A stretch of DNA of 64,000 nucleotides from Thiohalocapsa sp. (GTDB lineage: Bacteria; Pseudomonadota; Gammaproteobacteria; Chromatiales; Chromatiaceae): positions 1 through 64,000 of the forward strand of contig NZ_JAJDNQ010000080.1 in assembly GCF_022340605.1 (NCBI RefSeq). The letters are read 5' to 3'. Within the stretch, counting starts at the first letter, position 1, and every line of letters begins with the position of its first letter. The position numbers and the translations under genes were made by a program. A model generated the notes under the pieces. The model did no database searches. It was not told the DNA's origin and saw only the letters and a program-made list of their open reading frames with translations. Positions 23,754 to 29,796 of this stretch are shown piece by piece.

Positions 23754-25079
23754 CTATGCGAAATCGGGGTCACCACGCTTGGGCTCGCGCTCGCGCTCGC
23801 GCTCGATGAGCATTTGCGCCAGCGAGTGGTAGAGCGGCTGCGGGGTCAGCAGGTAGGAGACACCGTAGCCGATCATCGCTGCCGCCATCAGTGCCAGCAG
23901 GGTGTTCTGGTTGTCGGTCATCTCCATGACGATGACGAAGCCGGTGATGGGGGATTTCACCGCGCCGGCGAAATAGGACACCATGCCCAGCAGTACCATC
24001 AGATCCAGCGGTGCCAGGGGCAGCACCCGGTGCAGGTCGGCGCCGATGCCGGCCCCGGTGGATAGTGCCGGCGCGAATATGCCGCCGGGGATGTTGCTCA
24101 GGTAGGACGCGAGCGACGCGATGAACTTGTACACGGCATAGAAGGGTTGCGGTGCCTCGCCGTCGATGACCAGGGCCTTGGCGATCTGGTAGCCGGAGCC
24201 CATGACGTCATAGTTCGTCATCGCCCCCATCAGCACCACCACGGCACCGCAGACGAAGGCGACGCCGAGGGGATTGCTCGCCACCAACGGGGCGAGTGCC
24301 CGCGACATGCGCATGACAAAGTAAGCGAACAGCCCGCCGGCGAGGCCCGCCACGACCGCGCAGACCAGCACGGCTAGCCAATCGCTCGATCCGGTCGCCT
24401 GTCCGGCCGCGGCGGTGCCGAAGTAGTAGGGCTGCCCCACCAGCAGCATCGAGACCAGCGCGGACAGCACGACGGATAGCACGACGATCCCGGCGAGCCG
24501 TGGCGTGAAGCTGCGCAGCATCTCCTCGAACGCGAACACGATGCCCGCCAACGGGGTGTTGAACGCCGCTGAGATGCCCGCCGCGCCACCGGCCAGGAGC
24601 ATGCCGCGGGCCATGTAATCGGCCGGGAAGCGGGCCAGCCGGCGCATGGAATACATGATGGCAGCGGCCACGTGGACGGTGGGCCCCTCGCGACCGACAG
24701 AGGCGCCGCAGACCTGGGCGATCAGGGTCAGCAGGATCTTGCCGCCCGCGAGCCAGAGCGTCAGCCAGCGATCCTTCGCCCGGGTCTCCAGTGCGGCGAT
24801 CACCTGGTTGATGCCGCTGCCCTCGCTGCCGGGGAAGAACCGGCGTGCGAGCCAGGCCACCAGCACCAGCCCGAGGGGCGTCATCAACAGCGGCAGCATG
24901 GGCTCGGCGGCGGCGATGCGCTGGAAGAGCAGGTTGGCCTGCTCGCTGAGCTGGCCGAAGGCGGACGACACCGCCCCCACCAGCACCGCACCGAGCAGGA
25001 ACGCGGCGCGCACCCGCCAGGCGCGCGCGGAGAGCAGCACGCGGCGGGTATAGCGCAGGCGGTCGATACGCATGGCCAT
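23754..25079 (-). CDS. ClC-family chloride channel/antiporter
   Basis: This is a 441-residue multi-spanning membrane protein with ClC signatures. GSGIN (residues 87-91) stands where most ClC proteins have GSGIP. GREGPTVH (129-136) carries the gating Glu131, and PLAGIVFAFEEML and GGIFAPALSTGAG complete the ion-pathway motifs. There are no C-terminal CBS domains. The tail instead ends in an Arg-Glu repeat (EREREREPKRG) encoded by a short GCTCGC-type array at 23778-23802. Transport of chloride or a related anion, perhaps coupled to protons, is inferred from the family. It lies on the same strand as the dsrC-like gene upstream, 136 bases away. Confidence 0.92.
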   Translation of the reverse strand: MAMRIDRLRYTRRVLLSARAWRVRAAFLLGAVLVGAVSSAFGQLSEQANLLFQRIAAAEPMLPLLMTPLGLVLVAWLARRFFPGSEGSGINQVIAALETRAKDRWLTLWLAGGKILLTLIAQVCGASVGREGPTVHVAAAIMYSMRRLARFPADYMARGMLLAGGAAGISAAFNTPLAGIVFAFEEMLRSFTPRLAGIVVLSVVLSALVSMLLVGQPYYFGTAAAGQATGSSDWLAVLVCAVVAGLAGGLFAYFVMRMSRALAPLVASNPLGVAFVCGAVVVLMGAMTNYDVMGSGYQIAKALVIDGEAPQPFYAVYKFIASLASYLSNIPGGIFAPALSTGAGIGADLHRVLPLAPLDLMVLLGMVSYFAGAVKSPITGFVIVMEMTDNQNTLLALMAAAMIGYGVSYLLTPQPLYHSLAQMLIEREREREPKRGDPDFA

Positions 25080-25215
25080 CAAGCGCCGCTACGCCCGCCG
25101 CGCACCACGGCACAGACCGGCAACGCCGCGCGCCGCCGGGGGAGGCGAAAAAAAGCCGGCTTGCGGCCGGCTGCTGGTTGCCGAGTGCGCGTGTCGCACA
25201 GCGTGCGACGTCCGC

Positions 25216-25554
25216 TCAATAGCCGCCCTTGCGCATCACCTCGGGCAGGCCCGCGATCTTGGTGCCCTGCTTGGTGGGGGCCAGCGGGAAGAGCTTGTAG
25301 ACATCCTTGCTGGTGGGCTTGGAGCCCCAGACCTTGCCCATGTCCTTCAGCAACTGGCGCTCCATGGGCTGGTTCTGGTTGTGGTTGTAGTACTCCTCGC
25401 GGAGGTACTTGATGATGTCCCAGTGTTTGTCGGTGAGCTCGATGCCTTCCGCATCCGCCAAGACCTTGGCGACGTCCTCATTCCAGTCGCCGAGGTTGGC
25501 CAGGTAGCCGCTCGCGGTGGTTTCGATGCTCGTACCGTTGACTTCGATTGCCAT
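25216..25554 (-). CDS. DsrC/TusE-family protein lacking both redox cysteines
   Basis: The 112-residue product is clearly a DsrC paralogue: MAIEVNG at the start, GYLANLGDWNEDVA, ELTDKHWDIIKYLREEYY and LFPLAPTKQG..AGLP all align with the dsrC gene at 32321. Yet both functional cysteines are gone. The position of DsrC Cys98 (QACRYAGLP) reads QGTKIAGLP, and the C-terminal GCV is replaced by KGGY. The protein has no cysteine at all, so it cannot carry persulfide or form the DsrC trisulfide. Such cysteine-less homologues have been grouped as regulatory-type (RspA-like) proteins. GAGGAG precedes the ATG. It follows the cas6-like gene in the same direction. Confidence 0.93.
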   Translation of the reverse strand: MAIEVNGTSIETTASGYLANLGDWNEDVAKVLADAEGIELTDKHWDIIKYLREEYYNHNQNQPMERQLLKDMGKVWGSKPTSKDVYKLFPLAPTKQGTKIAGLPEVMRKGGY

Positions 25555-25899
25555 GTTGGGCTGCTCCTCTCGTCGTCGCCGGCGGCGATGGCCGCCGGGT
25601 GCGTTTCTTGTGTCTTTGCGCTGCCGTCGCCAGCGGACGTGCTCGATGGCGACAGCATAATGACCCGCTAATATTAGAGAAATCGGCGGGTTAGGGAAAC
25701 TTCTAAATGACCGGTGTCGTCCGGCAGGCGCCTGGGCCGGCCAGACCGAGTGGCATTAAGGCACTGAAAGTGCAGAGATAGGAAGAGACCGCGGTGCTCC
25801 CATTGAGACCTGGCTCGGTGCTGGTCTCGGCCCCCGATGCTGATCGGTCCCCCCGCCGGAACGGGGGCTGGTCCGGCTCCGTCGTCTTCGTGCAGGCGT
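25555..25899. other. Intergenic region between cas6-like and dsrC-like genes
   Basis: About 345 bases without a supported gene. It contains a locally AT-rich segment (CTAATATTAGAGAAATC, near 25668-25684) flanked by ACCCGC (25663-25668) and GCGGGT (25686-25691), an inverted repeat that could be an operator or a small hairpin. This suggests the dsrC-like gene has its own promoter. Confidence 0.5.
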
Positions 25900-26583
25900 C
25901 TACTTGGGCTTATGCACCGCGTCGATGCCTTTGTGCGGGATGAACAGCCCGCAGCCCATGGCGCGGTACGGGCCGAGTCCGCGCTGTTGCAGGAGCAACG
26001 ACTCCTCCGGCGGCAAGTCCGCCAGCATCAGGCTGCGTGTCTCGATGGGGCCGTCCGGCGTCGCCAGCCGCGTCGTCTTGCCGCACAGGGCCTTGCGCAC
26101 GCGGATGCCCATCTCGGCAAGTGTGTCGGCTGCCCAGCGCAGGAAGGCGTCCTCGTCCACCCCGGGCGGGCCCGCCACGTAGCGCGAAAAGATCGTGCCT
26201 TCTCTGCCCAGCGGCCGCGGCTTGGCATTGCCGATGCCGAGCGGGGCACCGGCGATGTCCAGCGTCCTGCCCTCGAGGGCGGCGCGCAGCGCGTCCATCT
26301 TGGCCCGGGGCACGCGGATGCTCAGCTTGGTGCGCCGAGACAATAACAGATGCTGGTCTCCGCCGTGGGTCGGACGCTCCCACCCATTCTGTGAGCCGGC
26401 CACGTGGATGCTGTGGATGCCACAGCCGGGCTCTTCGAGCCAGGGCGCGGCGGCCAGCAGGGCGCGGCTCAGCGCGTAGGCATGATCCACGGGGATGGAG
26501 CGGCAATCAAGGTTGAACAGCACGTCGACGATGTCGTCGGCGATGCCGATCGCGGGGGTTTCCTCGTCTTCCTGCCAAAACAT
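25900..26583 (-). CDS. Orphan Cas6/Cmx6-like endoribonuclease-family protein
   Basis: The 227-residue protein resembles the Cas6/Cmx6 family of type I CRISPR systems. It has VDVLFNLDCRSIPVDHAYAL near the N-terminus (candidate His34), a LLLSRRTKLSIRVP strand, GRTLDIAGAPLGIG, KPRPLGREGTIFSRYV, EESLLLQQRGLG, and a C-terminal glycine-rich loop MGCGLFIP. Cas6 proteins bind and cut CRISPR repeat RNA. No CRISPR array or other cas gene is present in the window, so a different RNA substrate or role is likely. The frame is open into the upstream gene; ATG 26583 starts the conserved region, though no ribosome site is obvious. The same-strand neighbours are the dsrC-like gene and a 237-residue protein. 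Confidence 0.75.
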   Translation of the reverse strand: MFWQEDEETPAIGIADDIVDVLFNLDCRSIPVDHAYALSRALLAAAPWLEEPGCGIHSIHVAGSQNGWERPTHGGDQHLLLSRRTKLSIRVPRAKMDALRAALEGRTLDIAGAPLGIGNAKPRPLGREGTIFSRYVAGPPGVDEDAFLRWAADTLAEMGIRVRKALCGKTTRLATPDGPIETRSLMLADLPPEESLLLQQRGLGPYRAMGCGLFIPHKGIDAVHKPK

Positions 26584-26671
26584 ATGGGGGCGTGGGATGC
26601 GTTGGGTGAACGGGTGCCGGCGACGGACTCGGCGTCGGGCGCGCAGGCCCGACTGGCGCCAAGTCCTGGCC

Positions 26672-27385
26672 TTAGGCGGGCAGTCGCTCCTGCAGCGCCT
26701 CGCGGTCGAACCACCAGTCGTCCTGGACCAGCACGTCGATGACGTTGCGCAGCCGCACGAGGAATTTTTCCGGCTCGCGCAATTCCAGCCGGTCGCGCCA
26801 CAGGTCGAAGGCCTCCTGACTGTCCACGTCGCTGTGACGGCGGGCAACACTGGAGAGCATCTGGGACGTGAAGAAGACCAGATTTTCGCGCTGCGTCCCC
26901 TCGGCACGCAGGTCGGCCAAGAACAGGGCCGTGGTGGCGGCGACCGCGGCGCCGTCGGCGTCGTTGGGCGTTTCGTCCACGACGTGGTTGAGCAGGTCGA
27001 CGGCCAGCTCGACATCGATAGGGCAGGTGACCGCCAGCCAGATGCCCTGCCCTAGCGCGGCGAGCGACTGGGGCTGCTCGGCGCGGAACAGGACATCGCA
27101 GCAGTCGGCCGCCGATTCGATCTCTTCGAGCGTCATGAAGGCGTCGAAGGCCTCGCGTGCGATCGACCAAGCCTGCTCGCCGCGGCCCAGTCCGACCAGC
27201 GTCCGCGCCATCTGCAGTTGCGTTTCGGCGACGCGAAGCGCGTCGGCGCCGGCGCGCTGGATGGTGTCGTATTGTTCCTGCAGTGCCAACAGGTGCGACT
27301 CCAGCGCCGCTTCCTCGGCGCCCTGCCGGACGATGGAATCTGCCGCGGTGTCGGGCAGTCGCTGGGTGATGTCGTAAGCCTTCAT
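26672..27385 (-). CDS. Uncharacterised 237-residue helical protein
   Basis: I do not recognise this family. The sequence is acidic, alanine/leucine-rich and predicted almost fully helical, with a TPR-like feel around residues 45-110 (RVAETQLQMARTLVGLGRGE, QAWSIAREAFDAFMTLEE). There is no signal peptide or membrane segment, so it should be cytosolic. It lies between the 63-residue gene and the cas6-like gene, all on the minus strand with gaps of 171 and 88 bases, which suggests a shared function with the Cas6-like and DsrC-like proteins. A helical-repeat adaptor or chaperone is one possibility, stated only as inference. Confidence 0.8.
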   Translation of the reverse strand: MKAYDITQRLPDTAADSIVRQGAEEAALESHLLALQEQYDTIQRAGADALRVAETQLQMARTLVGLGRGEQAWSIAREAFDAFMTLEEIESAADCCDVLFRAEQPQSLAALGQGIWLAVTCPIDVELAVDLLNHVVDETPNDADGAAVAATTALFLADLRAEGTQRENLVFFTSQMLSSVARRHSDVDSQEAFDLWRDRLELREPEKFLVRLRNVIDVLVQDDWWFDREALQERLPA

Positions 27386-27556
27386 GTGGATCGCCTAACG
27401 GGGTTCGCTTGCGGGCTTGGCAGTTGCGATGGCCTCTGCGGATGGTTGCCGGGATGACCTGTTCGGGTGACGGTTATGTCTGTGCGCCCGATGTGCGCTT
27501 GGTCTGCGCCCGGTCCGCTGCCGGTGTGGTCAGTGGCAGCCGCAGTCGGCCGCGGA

Positions 27557-27748
27557 TCAACGGATCAGGCCGCTGAATGCCGCCTCCAGGCGGTCTTCCC
27601 AGTCCTCTGGGGTGTCCGGGTAGGGCGGCTTCACGTCCATTCGGAAGAAGCGTTCCCCGGTGCGGGCGGCATCCATCACCGCGTGCTGCAGTTCGGGGAA
27701 GGTCTCGATGTCTTTCCGGGAGACCAAGATCTCACTAAGTTTCAACAT
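27557..27748 (-). CDS. Uncharacterised 63-residue protein of the DsrC-like/Cas6-like cluster
   Basis: This short protein starts MLKLSEILVSRKDIETF and contains a distinctive conserved-looking core (GERFFRMDVKPPYPDTPEDW). Its composition is that of a real protein (acidic, aromatic, with few of the Arg/Ala runs typical of spurious frames). It has no cysteine, so it does not itself carry sulfur. It is the first gene of the minus-strand group 27748-25216 and diverges from dsrA. Function is unknown; linkage to the sulfur genes is the only clue. The ribosome site is weak. Confidence 0.7.
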   Translation of the reverse strand: MLKLSEILVSRKDIETFPELQHAVMDAARTGERFFRMDVKPPYPDTPEDWEDRLEAAFSGLIR

Positions 27749-28096
27749 GGGTTCGGTGCCCTCGAGTTCGTAGGGGCCATCTCCCCGCTTTGCGGTCCGG
27801 CCGTTGCGCCTGGATGGCACGCCGTGGGCGGGCCTTGGCAGTGCTCTGCAATGGTCGGGCGCACGGCGGCGGGCCAGAAAGTGTCGGCGAGTGTCTGCGC
27901 GCCGCACTTGCGGCCTGAGCCGTCGGCCGCGGCAAAGCCCGCGGAACTTCTGCCCCGAGCGCATGTCGTGCTGCGGTCATGGGCGGCTATGTGCTGACGC
28001 GCCACGTCGAATGCAACGCGGGCGTCGCAAAACGGGTATCCCTAAGTAGGGATTCAGGCGCGTCTCGATATCAGTGGGTACGAATATTAGGGAACG

Positions 28097-28125
28097 TTGA
28101 CATTGACAGGGGTGCTGGCTAGACT
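28097..28125 (+). promoter_or_regulatory. Sigma-70-type promoter candidate for dsrA
   Basis: TTGACA (28097-28102) is followed after exactly 17 bases by TAGACT (28120-28125). A second TTGACA directly follows the first (28103-28108). It points towards dsrA and would give a leader of over 400 bases. Confidence 0.55.
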
Positions 28126-28200
28126 CGGTGGCCTTGAGCAAAGGTGGGGCGACAACTTCATACCCCATTGAGCGGAAAAAGAAAAAAGCAGTCGGTCAAC

Positions 28201-28216
28201 TATCCCCAATGGGATA
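28201..28216. promoter_or_regulatory. Palindrome TATCCC-CAAT-GGGATA upstream of dsrA
   Basis: Perfect 6-bp arms flank CAAT. A related half-site, ATACCCCATTG, lies about 40 bases upstream (near 28160), downstream of the promoter candidate. It could be a repressor or activator site in the dsr leader; this is inferred from symmetry and location only. Confidence 0.4.
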
Positions 28217-28548
28217 TCCCGGCGCCAACCCGACATCCCGAACGTGGAATTTCTGTCTCCGGTCCAGCCGACTATAGTGCCTCCCCAGACACGGGCGTCC
28301 TGCGACGAGGTCCGGGCGGAGCCATGCCGGTGCCAGGGCGGCGTCTAGATGACTTCTTATGAGGCGTCGGCCAAAAAGCGTCGGCCAGACACATAGGCCG
28401 CAAGTGGCTCGCGCAAGACGCCCAAAGCTCTACCCAAACTTCGGTCCGGCAGCCCACGGCGTGTGCTGTCAGACGCCGGGCCCAAATTGATCGGATCCCA
28501 ATCTTGATCAGATTAGGTTGACCTGACCTCTACGGGAGATTCAGCGAC

Positions 28549-29796
28549 ATGGCGATCGACAAGCACCATACCCCGATGATCGATCAGCTGGAGGACGGCC
28601 CCTGGCCGAGCTTCATCTCCGGCATCAAGCGGCTGCGTGACGAGCATCCGAACGAGCGCATCAACGCGGTGACCAATGACCTGCTCGGTCAGCTGGAGCA
28701 CTCCTACGAGACCCGCAAGGGCTACTGGAAGGGAGGCACCGTTTCCGTTTATGGCTACGGCGGCGGCATCATCCCGCGCTTCTCCGAGGTCGGCAAGGCG
28801 TTCCCCAAGTCGAGAGAATTCCACACCCTGCGTGTGCAGCCGCCGGCTGGCAATCACTACAGCACAGCGATGCTGCGTCAGCTCGCCGACAGTTGGGAGA
28901 AGTACGGCTCGGGTCTGGTCACTTTCCATGGTCAGACCGGCAACATCATGTTCATCGGCGCCGACACTGAGTCGACGCAGCACTTCTTCGACGAGATCAA
29001 CGAGTACGGTTGGGACCTCGGCGGCGCCGGCCCTTGCGTGCGCACGGCCATGTCCTGCGTGGGCGCGGCCCGTTGCGAGATGTCGTGCACCAATGAGCTG
29101 AAGTCCCACCGCATGCTGGTGAACAACTTCACCGACGATGTGCACCGTCCGGCGCTGCCGTACAAGTTCAAGTTCAAGGTGTCCGGCTGCGCCAACGACT
29201 GCCAGAACGCCATCGAGCGCTCCGATTTCGCCGTGCTCGGTACTTGGCGCGACGACATGAAGGTCGACCAGGACGAGGTGAAGGCCTACGTGAAGGCCAA
29301 GGGCCGCCAGTACATTATCGACAACGTCATCACCCGTTGCCCGACCCAGGCTTTGTCGCTCAACGACGATGACACGCTGGCTGTCAACAACCGCGACTGC
29401 GTGCGCTGTATGCACTGCCTCAACGTCATGCCGAAGGCGCTGCACCCCGGCGACGACAAGGGTGTGACCATCCTCATCGGCGGTAAGCGCACGCTCAAGA
29501 TCGGCGACCTGATGGGTACCGTGGTCGTGCCGTTCAAGAAGCTGGACACCGAGGAAGACTACGAGGAGATGGTGGAACTCGCCGAGAACATCATCGACTT
29601 CTGGGCCGAGAACGGGCTGGAGCACGAGCGCTGTGGCGAGATGATCGAGCGCATCGGGCTTGCCAACTTCCTCGACGGCATCGGTATCGACCCCGATCCG
29701 AACATGCTGAGCCATCCGCGTCAGTCGTCCTATATCCGCATGGACGGCTGGGACGAGGCCGCCGAGGCGTGGTTCGAGAAGCAGGCCGCCGGCTAA
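28549..29796 (+). CDS. dsrA: Reverse dissimilatory sulfite reductase, alpha subunit
   Basis: DsrA is the alpha subunit of DsrA2B2, which in this organism type oxidises reduced sulfur delivered on DsrC to sulfite in the cytoplasm. The 415-residue protein has the sirohaem-[4Fe-4S] cysteines Cys170-x5-Cys176 (SCVGAARC) and Cys214-x3-Cys218 (SGCANDC). A ferredoxin motif CVRCMHC starts at residue 284. Length and motifs match the oxidative type of purple sulfur bacteria. GGGAG lies upstream of the ATG. It opens a single-direction cluster reaching dsrS at 43414. Confidence 0.98.
   Translation: MAIDKHHTPMIDQLEDGPWPSFISGIKRLRDEHPNERINAVTNDLLGQLEHSYETRKGYWKGGTVSVYGYGGGIIPRFSEVGKAFPKSREFHTLRVQPPAGNHYSTAMLRQLADSWEKYGSGLVTFHGQTGNIMFIGADTESTQHFFDEINEYGWDLGGAGPCVRTAMSCVGAARCEMSCTNELKSHRMLVNNFTDDVHRPALPYKFKFKVSGCANDCQNAIERSDFAVLGTWRDDMKVDQDEVKAYVKAKGRQYIIDNVITRCPTQALSLNDDDTLAVNNRDCVRCMHCLNVMPKALHPGDDKGVTILIGGKRTLKIGDLMGTVVVPFKKLDTEEDYEEMVELAENIIDFWAENGLEHERCGEMIERIGLANFLDGIGIDPDPNMLSHPRQSSYIRMDGWDEAAEAWFEKQAAG

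Follow-up and report, generated by a model that had tools for sequence, protein, structure and literature searches.

Why does a gene of the Cas6 family, whose members process CRISPR RNA, stand beside an operon for sulfur oxidation? The question is raised by a stretch of 64,000 nucleotides from Thiohalocapsa sp. (positions 1 to 64,000 of contig NZ_JAJDNQ010000080.1, assembly GCF_022340605.1), hereafter the window. Its minus strand carries a four-gene group that includes a Cas6-like gene, and its plus strand carries the dsr operon. We are highly confident that this RAMP protein has left CRISPR and now belongs, as a dedicated partner, to the oxidative Dsr pathway of Gammaproteobacteria. Its re-use in sulfur metabolism is strongly supported, because the gene is linked to dsrA and co-occurs with dsrA across genomes. 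The genes concerned are as follows.

25216-25554, minus strand: cysteine-free DsrC-like protein, 112 residues, C-terminus RKGGY (PF04358 profile, alignment)
25555-25899, minus strand: gap separating the Cas6-like gene from the DsrC-like gene; it contains the promoter-like CTAATATTAG at 25668-25677 (motif read by eye)
25900-26583, minus strand: Cas6-family (PF09559/TIGR02807) protein, 227 residues, dsr-linked type (profiles, model, tree)
26672-27385, minus strand: h237, an all-helical TPR-like solenoid protein of 237 residues (open reading frame call and structure model)
27557-27748, minus strand: s63, a conserved protein of 63 residues (open reading frame call), homologues of which also adjoin dsrA outside the class
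28549-29796, plus strand: dsrA, with which the divergent dsr operon begins (TIGR02064 match)

Since dsrA is read on the plus strand from 28549, the minus-strand group is divergent from the dsr operon, and 800 bp separate the two. All four minus-strand open reading frames are present where a first-pass annotation of the window had placed them.

Is the protein a Cas6? The 227-residue product matches PF09559 (Cas6) with an E-value of 2.2e-62 (210.9 bits, cut-off 26.7) and TIGR02807 (cas6_cmx6) with a score of 103.9 (cut-off 98.85). All 59 members of set A1 match TIGR02807 at E ≤ 0.001. The structure model has a mean predicted local distance difference test score (pLDDT) of 86.9 and a double ferredoxin (RAMP) fold, as the first-pass annotation had anticipated. 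Its best match in the PDB is 8fcj_B, the Cas6 of a type I-B CRISPR-associated transposon (CAST) complex (Z 24.2, root-mean-square deviation 2.3, 198 residues). The window protein is a member of the Cas6 family by profile and fold, and is not a CRISPR Cas6 by context. It shares the family profile, the double RAMP fold, and the glycine-rich loop with Cas6/Cmx6, including the Cas6 of type I-B CRISPR and of CAST (8fcj). In contrast to them, it has no adjacent array (by a crude scan), is linked to dsr, has invariant residues of its own and a W68-R70 insertion, and lacks a histidine at the aligned catalytic column.

For the counts of residues and of gene arrangement, identical Cas6 proteins were merged, leaving 91 distinct dsr-type proteins. 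Residues H34, L38, R84, R90, E144, G168, and G210 are invariant in all 91, and H57 is present in 90. W68 and R70 are present in 88 (exceptions, L110-L112), and the W68-R70 insertion is absent from the ten CRISPR-type sequences in the alignment. In a tree, 89 of the 91 form a branch with a support of 0.97, and nine CRISPR-type copies lie on a separate branch (support 0.906). By the simple count of Nei and Gojobori (NG86), comparison with eight relatives gives a ratio of nonsynonymous to synonymous substitution (dN/dS) of 0.19-0.32 for the Cas6-like gene and of 0.10-0.27 for the DsrC-like gene; for dsrA, compared with seven, it is 0.05-0.08.

Is the position beside dsrA a peculiarity of the window? 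Close relatives of the Cas6-like protein are found in 59 loci, mostly of Chromatiaceae and other gammaproteobacterial sulfur oxidisers, judged by record title. Linkage counts from this set lean to near relatives, because the loci were found by close similarity; the counts over 142 genomes, over 299 genomes, and by position are free of that bias. Among 142 genomes searched, 95 carry PF09559, and the gene is divergent from and adjacent to the dsrA match in 79 of these. The other 16 carriers include contig breaks and six genomes in which we take the gene to have moved away from dsrA (G060, G065, G067, G095, G118, and G128).

The neighbours travel with the gene. The DsrC-like gene follows the Cas6-like gene in 67 of the 82 distinct dsr-type loci with room for it. 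Upstream of it, h237 is present in 74 of 89 and s63 in 62 of 70. The complete set of four occurs in 44 of the 62 distinct loci whose flanks are long enough, so the association goes beyond chance, and the expectation that the four are neighbours in other genomes holds for most of those examined. In ten genomes the DsrC-like gene is not adjacent, and eight of these have a full-length copy elsewhere (57-79% identity). We rule out h237 as a defining part of the group, because 15 of the 89 loci with room for it, that of a 1.1-Mb genome among them, do not have it upstream.

Does the gene follow dsrA across genomes? We call a dsrA match strong when the best match is below 1e-60. PF09559 is present in 90 of the 91 genomes with a strong dsrA and in 5 of the 51 others; the matches were not typed singly, and the 79 carriers above are those shown to be dsr-linked by position. 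Of the five carriers without a strong dsrA, three have matches read as dsrB (G011, G020, and G034), and in two the block lies at a contig end (G048 and G059). Among the 55 genomes outside the family of the window's genome, PF09559 is present in 16 of 16 with dsrA and in 0 of 39 without it. A second, largely different sample of the phylum (299 genomes) has PF09559 in four, including the window's own genome. These four are the only genomes of the same class with a strong dsrA in that sample, and PF09559 is absent from its dsrA-bearing genomes of other classes.

The gene thus seems to be part of sulfur oxidation in 17 of 56 sampled families of the class, and its public CRISPR name is therefore misleading. 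It adds a near-constant and unstudied partner to the reverse Dsr (rDsr) pathway, and it offers a testable case of Cas6 exaptation outside immunity. Among the matches listed from titles and abstract openings of openly licensed PubMed Central articles, none links a Cas6 or Cmx6 protein to dsr. In the available part of PMC3397948, dsr mutants of Allochromatium vinosum are described; this organism would make the question directly testable, if its copy of the gene is confirmed.

What could a Cas6 do here? The aligned catalytic column holds a histidine in none of the 91 dsr-type proteins. In the same column, a histidine (LH) is found in all four copies of the type I-B branch (L094 typed by scan, L096-L098 by tree position) and in 8fcj, and PfuCas6 shows the same LHE motif as this branch. 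According to the excerpted text of PMC3652601, His46 of PfuCas6 is essential, and the glycine-rich loop marks the active-site region of Cas6. The dsr-type proteins keep that loop near the C-terminus (G202 in 89, G204 in 90, G210 as above, and G212 in 90 of 91). Judged by these residues, the dsr-type protein is likely catalytically inactive. The five copies of another CRISPR-type branch (L090-L093 and L095) likewise lack the aligned histidine, and a WYL regulator adjoins the gene in the two that were scanned (L092 and L095).

Since the usual catalytic histidine has been lost but the RAMP fold and the glycine-rich loop are retained, the Cas6-like protein would bind structured RNA with little or no cleavage. 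Its RNA would be that of the dsr system. The DsrC-like protein would fill a docking site of DsrC but carry no sulfur, and the two proteins would form a regulatory unit. We infer that RNA-level regulation is the most likely mechanism; that such a mechanism does act in the dsr system is a tentative proposal. The protein is probably an exapted Cas6 paralogue, a weakly or non-cleaving RNA binder dedicated to the Dsr pathway. The full statement, which joins the exapted Dsr partner, the little-cleaving RNA binder, and the regulatory unit with the DsrC-like protein, is plausible and falls just short of probable. A more specific scenario is rather unlikely as a whole: a single domestication in the ancestor of dsr-bearing Gammaproteobacteria, with rDsr controlled at the RNA level and the sulfur state read through a cysteine-free DsrC decoy. 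If this scenario is true, a protein that once served immunity now governs an energy metabolism. The missing histidine could also offer a way to tell RNA binding by Cas6 apart from cleavage.

Several observations weigh against one part or another of this reading. The branch with all 91 dsr-type proteins has a support of only 0.389. One genome of the 91 with a strong dsrA, G047, has no PF09559 match, and a further PF09559 search of G047 and eight dsrA-bearing genomes from another class gives no match. Transcription of the DsrC-like gene may start from a promoter of its own, and its product may work apart from the Cas6-like protein. The catalytic column was set by sequence alignment, near a loop, and equated with His46 of PfuCas6 by eye; four of the 91 proteins carry a histidine at another position of this short segment. 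The role of the lost histidine could be filled by H34, which lies in alpha-1. Loss of the histidine is not proof of inactivity, because the Sulfolobus Cas6, in the excerpts of PMC3652601, cleaves without the canonical histidine. The authors of that work, in the same excerpts, stress RNA recognition and chaperone-like roles; their enzyme, unlike our reading of the dsr-linked protein, processes CRISPR RNA.

Nor did the search among dsrA leaders and intercistronic gaps find an RNA target for the Cas6-like protein. The dsrA leaders (170 nt, 59 loci, 20 shuffles each) have no excess structure, with a mean z score of -0.46 and 15% below -1.5, and Rfam has no match in 25000-29000. The conserved RNA hairpin suggested earlier for the dsr leader is therefore not borne out. 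What is conserved upstream of dsrA is an inverted repeat that looks like a DNA operator, with these features in the window:

28201-28216, plus strand: TATCCC-N4-GGGATA, a dyad upstream of dsrA that may be an operator for the dsr promoter; no other exact copy was found in the window's genome
28236-28250, plus strand: imperfect second copy of the dyad (TCCCGAACGTGGAAT), read by eye
28273-28278, plus strand: TATAGT, a -10-like element, read by eye

Because the dyad lies upstream of the -10-like element and has a second, imperfect copy, we read it as a candidate DNA operator of a dedicated dsr regulator, and we reject an RNA hairpin in the leader. The dyad is present with at most one mismatch in 55 of 59 upstream regions, compared with 2 of 2950 single-base shuffles. 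Even when two mismatches are allowed, it is not found in the eight dsr loci outside the class, in L123-L125, or in L127. Of 12 genomes searched, eight have the exact dyad, beside dsrA in seven and elsewhere in G012, and G120 has a second, unlinked copy; it is absent from G081, G101, G125, and G131.

The dsr operon does have strong hairpins further on, in the dsrA-dsrB gap (mean z -2.5, n=66) and the dsrC-dsrM gap (mean z -2.7, n=58); these regions were not deduplicated and include those of G047. The hairpins would suit an enzyme that is still an active RNase and cleaves dsr-operon mRNA, or a small RNA, at specific sites and so sets the ratio of Dsr proteins. In the part of PMC3397948 available, the dsrEFH and dsrC transcripts of A. 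vinosum exceed that of dsrA. Such an enzyme could also use the invariant H34, as the catalytic histidines of Cas6e and Cas6f sit in alpha-1 (excerpted text of PMC3652601). However, the dsr operons of eight PF09559-free genomes outside the class also have intercistronic hairpins, with z below -1.5 in 4 of 7 dsrA-dsrB and 5 of 7 dsrC-dsrM gaps. We therefore drop the hairpins as evidence and reject them as a specific substrate. H34 is also present in eight of nine CRISPR-type copies of relatives and is therefore maybe structural, and no dsr-type protein has the aligned histidine. We regard an active RNase as an unlikely account of the protein. The first-pass annotation had suggested re-use for RNA-level control or modification in sulfur metabolism. 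The link to sulfur metabolism holds, by linkage and co-occurrence, but leader, dyad, hairpins, and missing histidine do not bear out the RNA level.

Might the protein no longer bind RNA at all? It could be a scaffold that acts by touching other proteins, namely the DsrC-like protein or the Dsr enzymes. Its gene adjoins those for the DsrC-like protein and for h237, whose structure model (pLDDT 91.2) is an all-helical TPR-like solenoid. In accordance, the GWxRP loop that contains W68 and R70 is specific to the main dsr group, and its region (residues 64-69) is in part poorly modelled when the protein is modelled alone, as a partner-binding loop might be. Sequence conservation speaks against it: the invariant R84 and R90 and the glycine-rich loop of the active-site region are kept. 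We hold a scaffold that has lost RNA binding to be quite unlikely.

Does the partner carry sulfur? The 112-residue protein matches PF04358 (DsrC) with an E-value of 1.4e-34 and contains no cysteine, so the first-pass description as a cysteine-free DsrC paralogue is correct. It is of the same family as DsrC and TusE by profile and keeps the C-terminal arm. It differs from DsrC in that both arm cysteines are replaced: the last is glycine in all 73 complete DsrC-like copies, which also sets the protein apart from TusE with its penultimate cysteine, and 73 of 74 have another residue in place of the earlier one. The C-terminus is RKGGY in 70 of 76. Such cysteine-free DsrC relatives go by the name RspA. 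With both arm cysteines replaced, the protein cannot carry sulfur in the known way, and a docking or decoy role may be envisaged from its sequence.

A role in RNA modification or sulfur relay, as of TusE in tRNA thiolation, was another first-pass suggestion. DsrC and TusE are homologous, and TusE passes sulfur to a tRNA enzyme, as the available part of PMC3397948 describes. The role is unsupported here, because the partner lacks both sulfur-carrying cysteines, and we consider it improbable.

Between the Cas6-like gene and the downstream DsrC-like gene lie 345 bp with a promoter-like TAATATTAG motif, read by eye. Because of this gap and motif, the DsrC-like gene may be a separate transcript. 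The four genes treated as one group in the first-pass annotation are thus all confirmed and occur together in relatives, but the last of them possibly stands on its own transcript.

Is the protein still at work for CRISPR? A crude repeat scan detects no CRISPR array in the window, and a PADLOC scan of nine window proteins matches only the Cas6-like protein and none of its eight neighbours, in agreement with the earlier impression that no array or other cas gene is visible. No array is detected by the crude scan in the dsr-type loci L001-L089 and L099-L109 either; the search for other cas genes covered only part of the loci. Second PF09559 copies from the same genus or family are of CRISPR type where scanned, either with Cas3, Cas8b, Cas7b, and Cas5b (L094) or with the WYL regulator (L092 and L095). 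In the genome of the window, a single second copy, on contig 36, falls among the WYL-linked copies in the tree. No cas1 match is found in 33 of the 95 PF09559 carriers, some of them incomplete genomes; G125 (1.1 Mb, 98% complete) is a carrier without a cas1 match. Because of this second, CRISPR-type-grouping copy and the 33 carriers, it is unlikely that a CRISPR locus without its own cas6 relies on the dsr-linked protein. That the protein is a CRISPR Cas6 serving distant arrays of the genome in trans is rejected as very improbable. The TIGR02807 matches of set A1, the only cas1 match of the window's genome (G000), which is on another contig, and the cas1 matches of 62 carriers might speak for it. 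Against it stand the cas1 counts, the separate CRISPR-type copies in some of the same genomes, and the fact that the gene tracks dsrA and not cas1, which occurs without PF09559 in 12 genomes. The dsr-linked gene is present both in Candidatus Thiobius and in strain ODIII6 (L055 and L056); in excerpts of the paper on them, CRISPR-associated proteins are present in Thiobius and absent in ODIII6.

Other features concern the flank. Profile searches give no family above its cut-off for s63 or h237, and a fold search with the h237 model gives weak TPR-like matches only, none at an E-value of 0.001 or better. A TauD-like dioxygenase gene stands between dsrA and the s63 gene in some relatives (L103, L028, L109, and others), being upstream in 33 of 68 loci with room; the L103 copy is PF02668. 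In the window, the open reading frame list has no TauD-like frame in the 800-bp gap. In seven of seven dsr loci without PF09559 from another class of the phylum (L175-L181), TauD-like and s63 genes are divergent from dsrA; an eighth locus of that class, L133, has too little upstream sequence. Four of L175-L181 have a shared gene next, which is a sirohaem synthase gene in the three that were scanned. The Cas6-like gene and the DsrC-like gene may have joined this dsr-flanking group later. In L105 (7939-10005), the Cas6-like gene has moved beside a PF04143 sulfur-transport gene.

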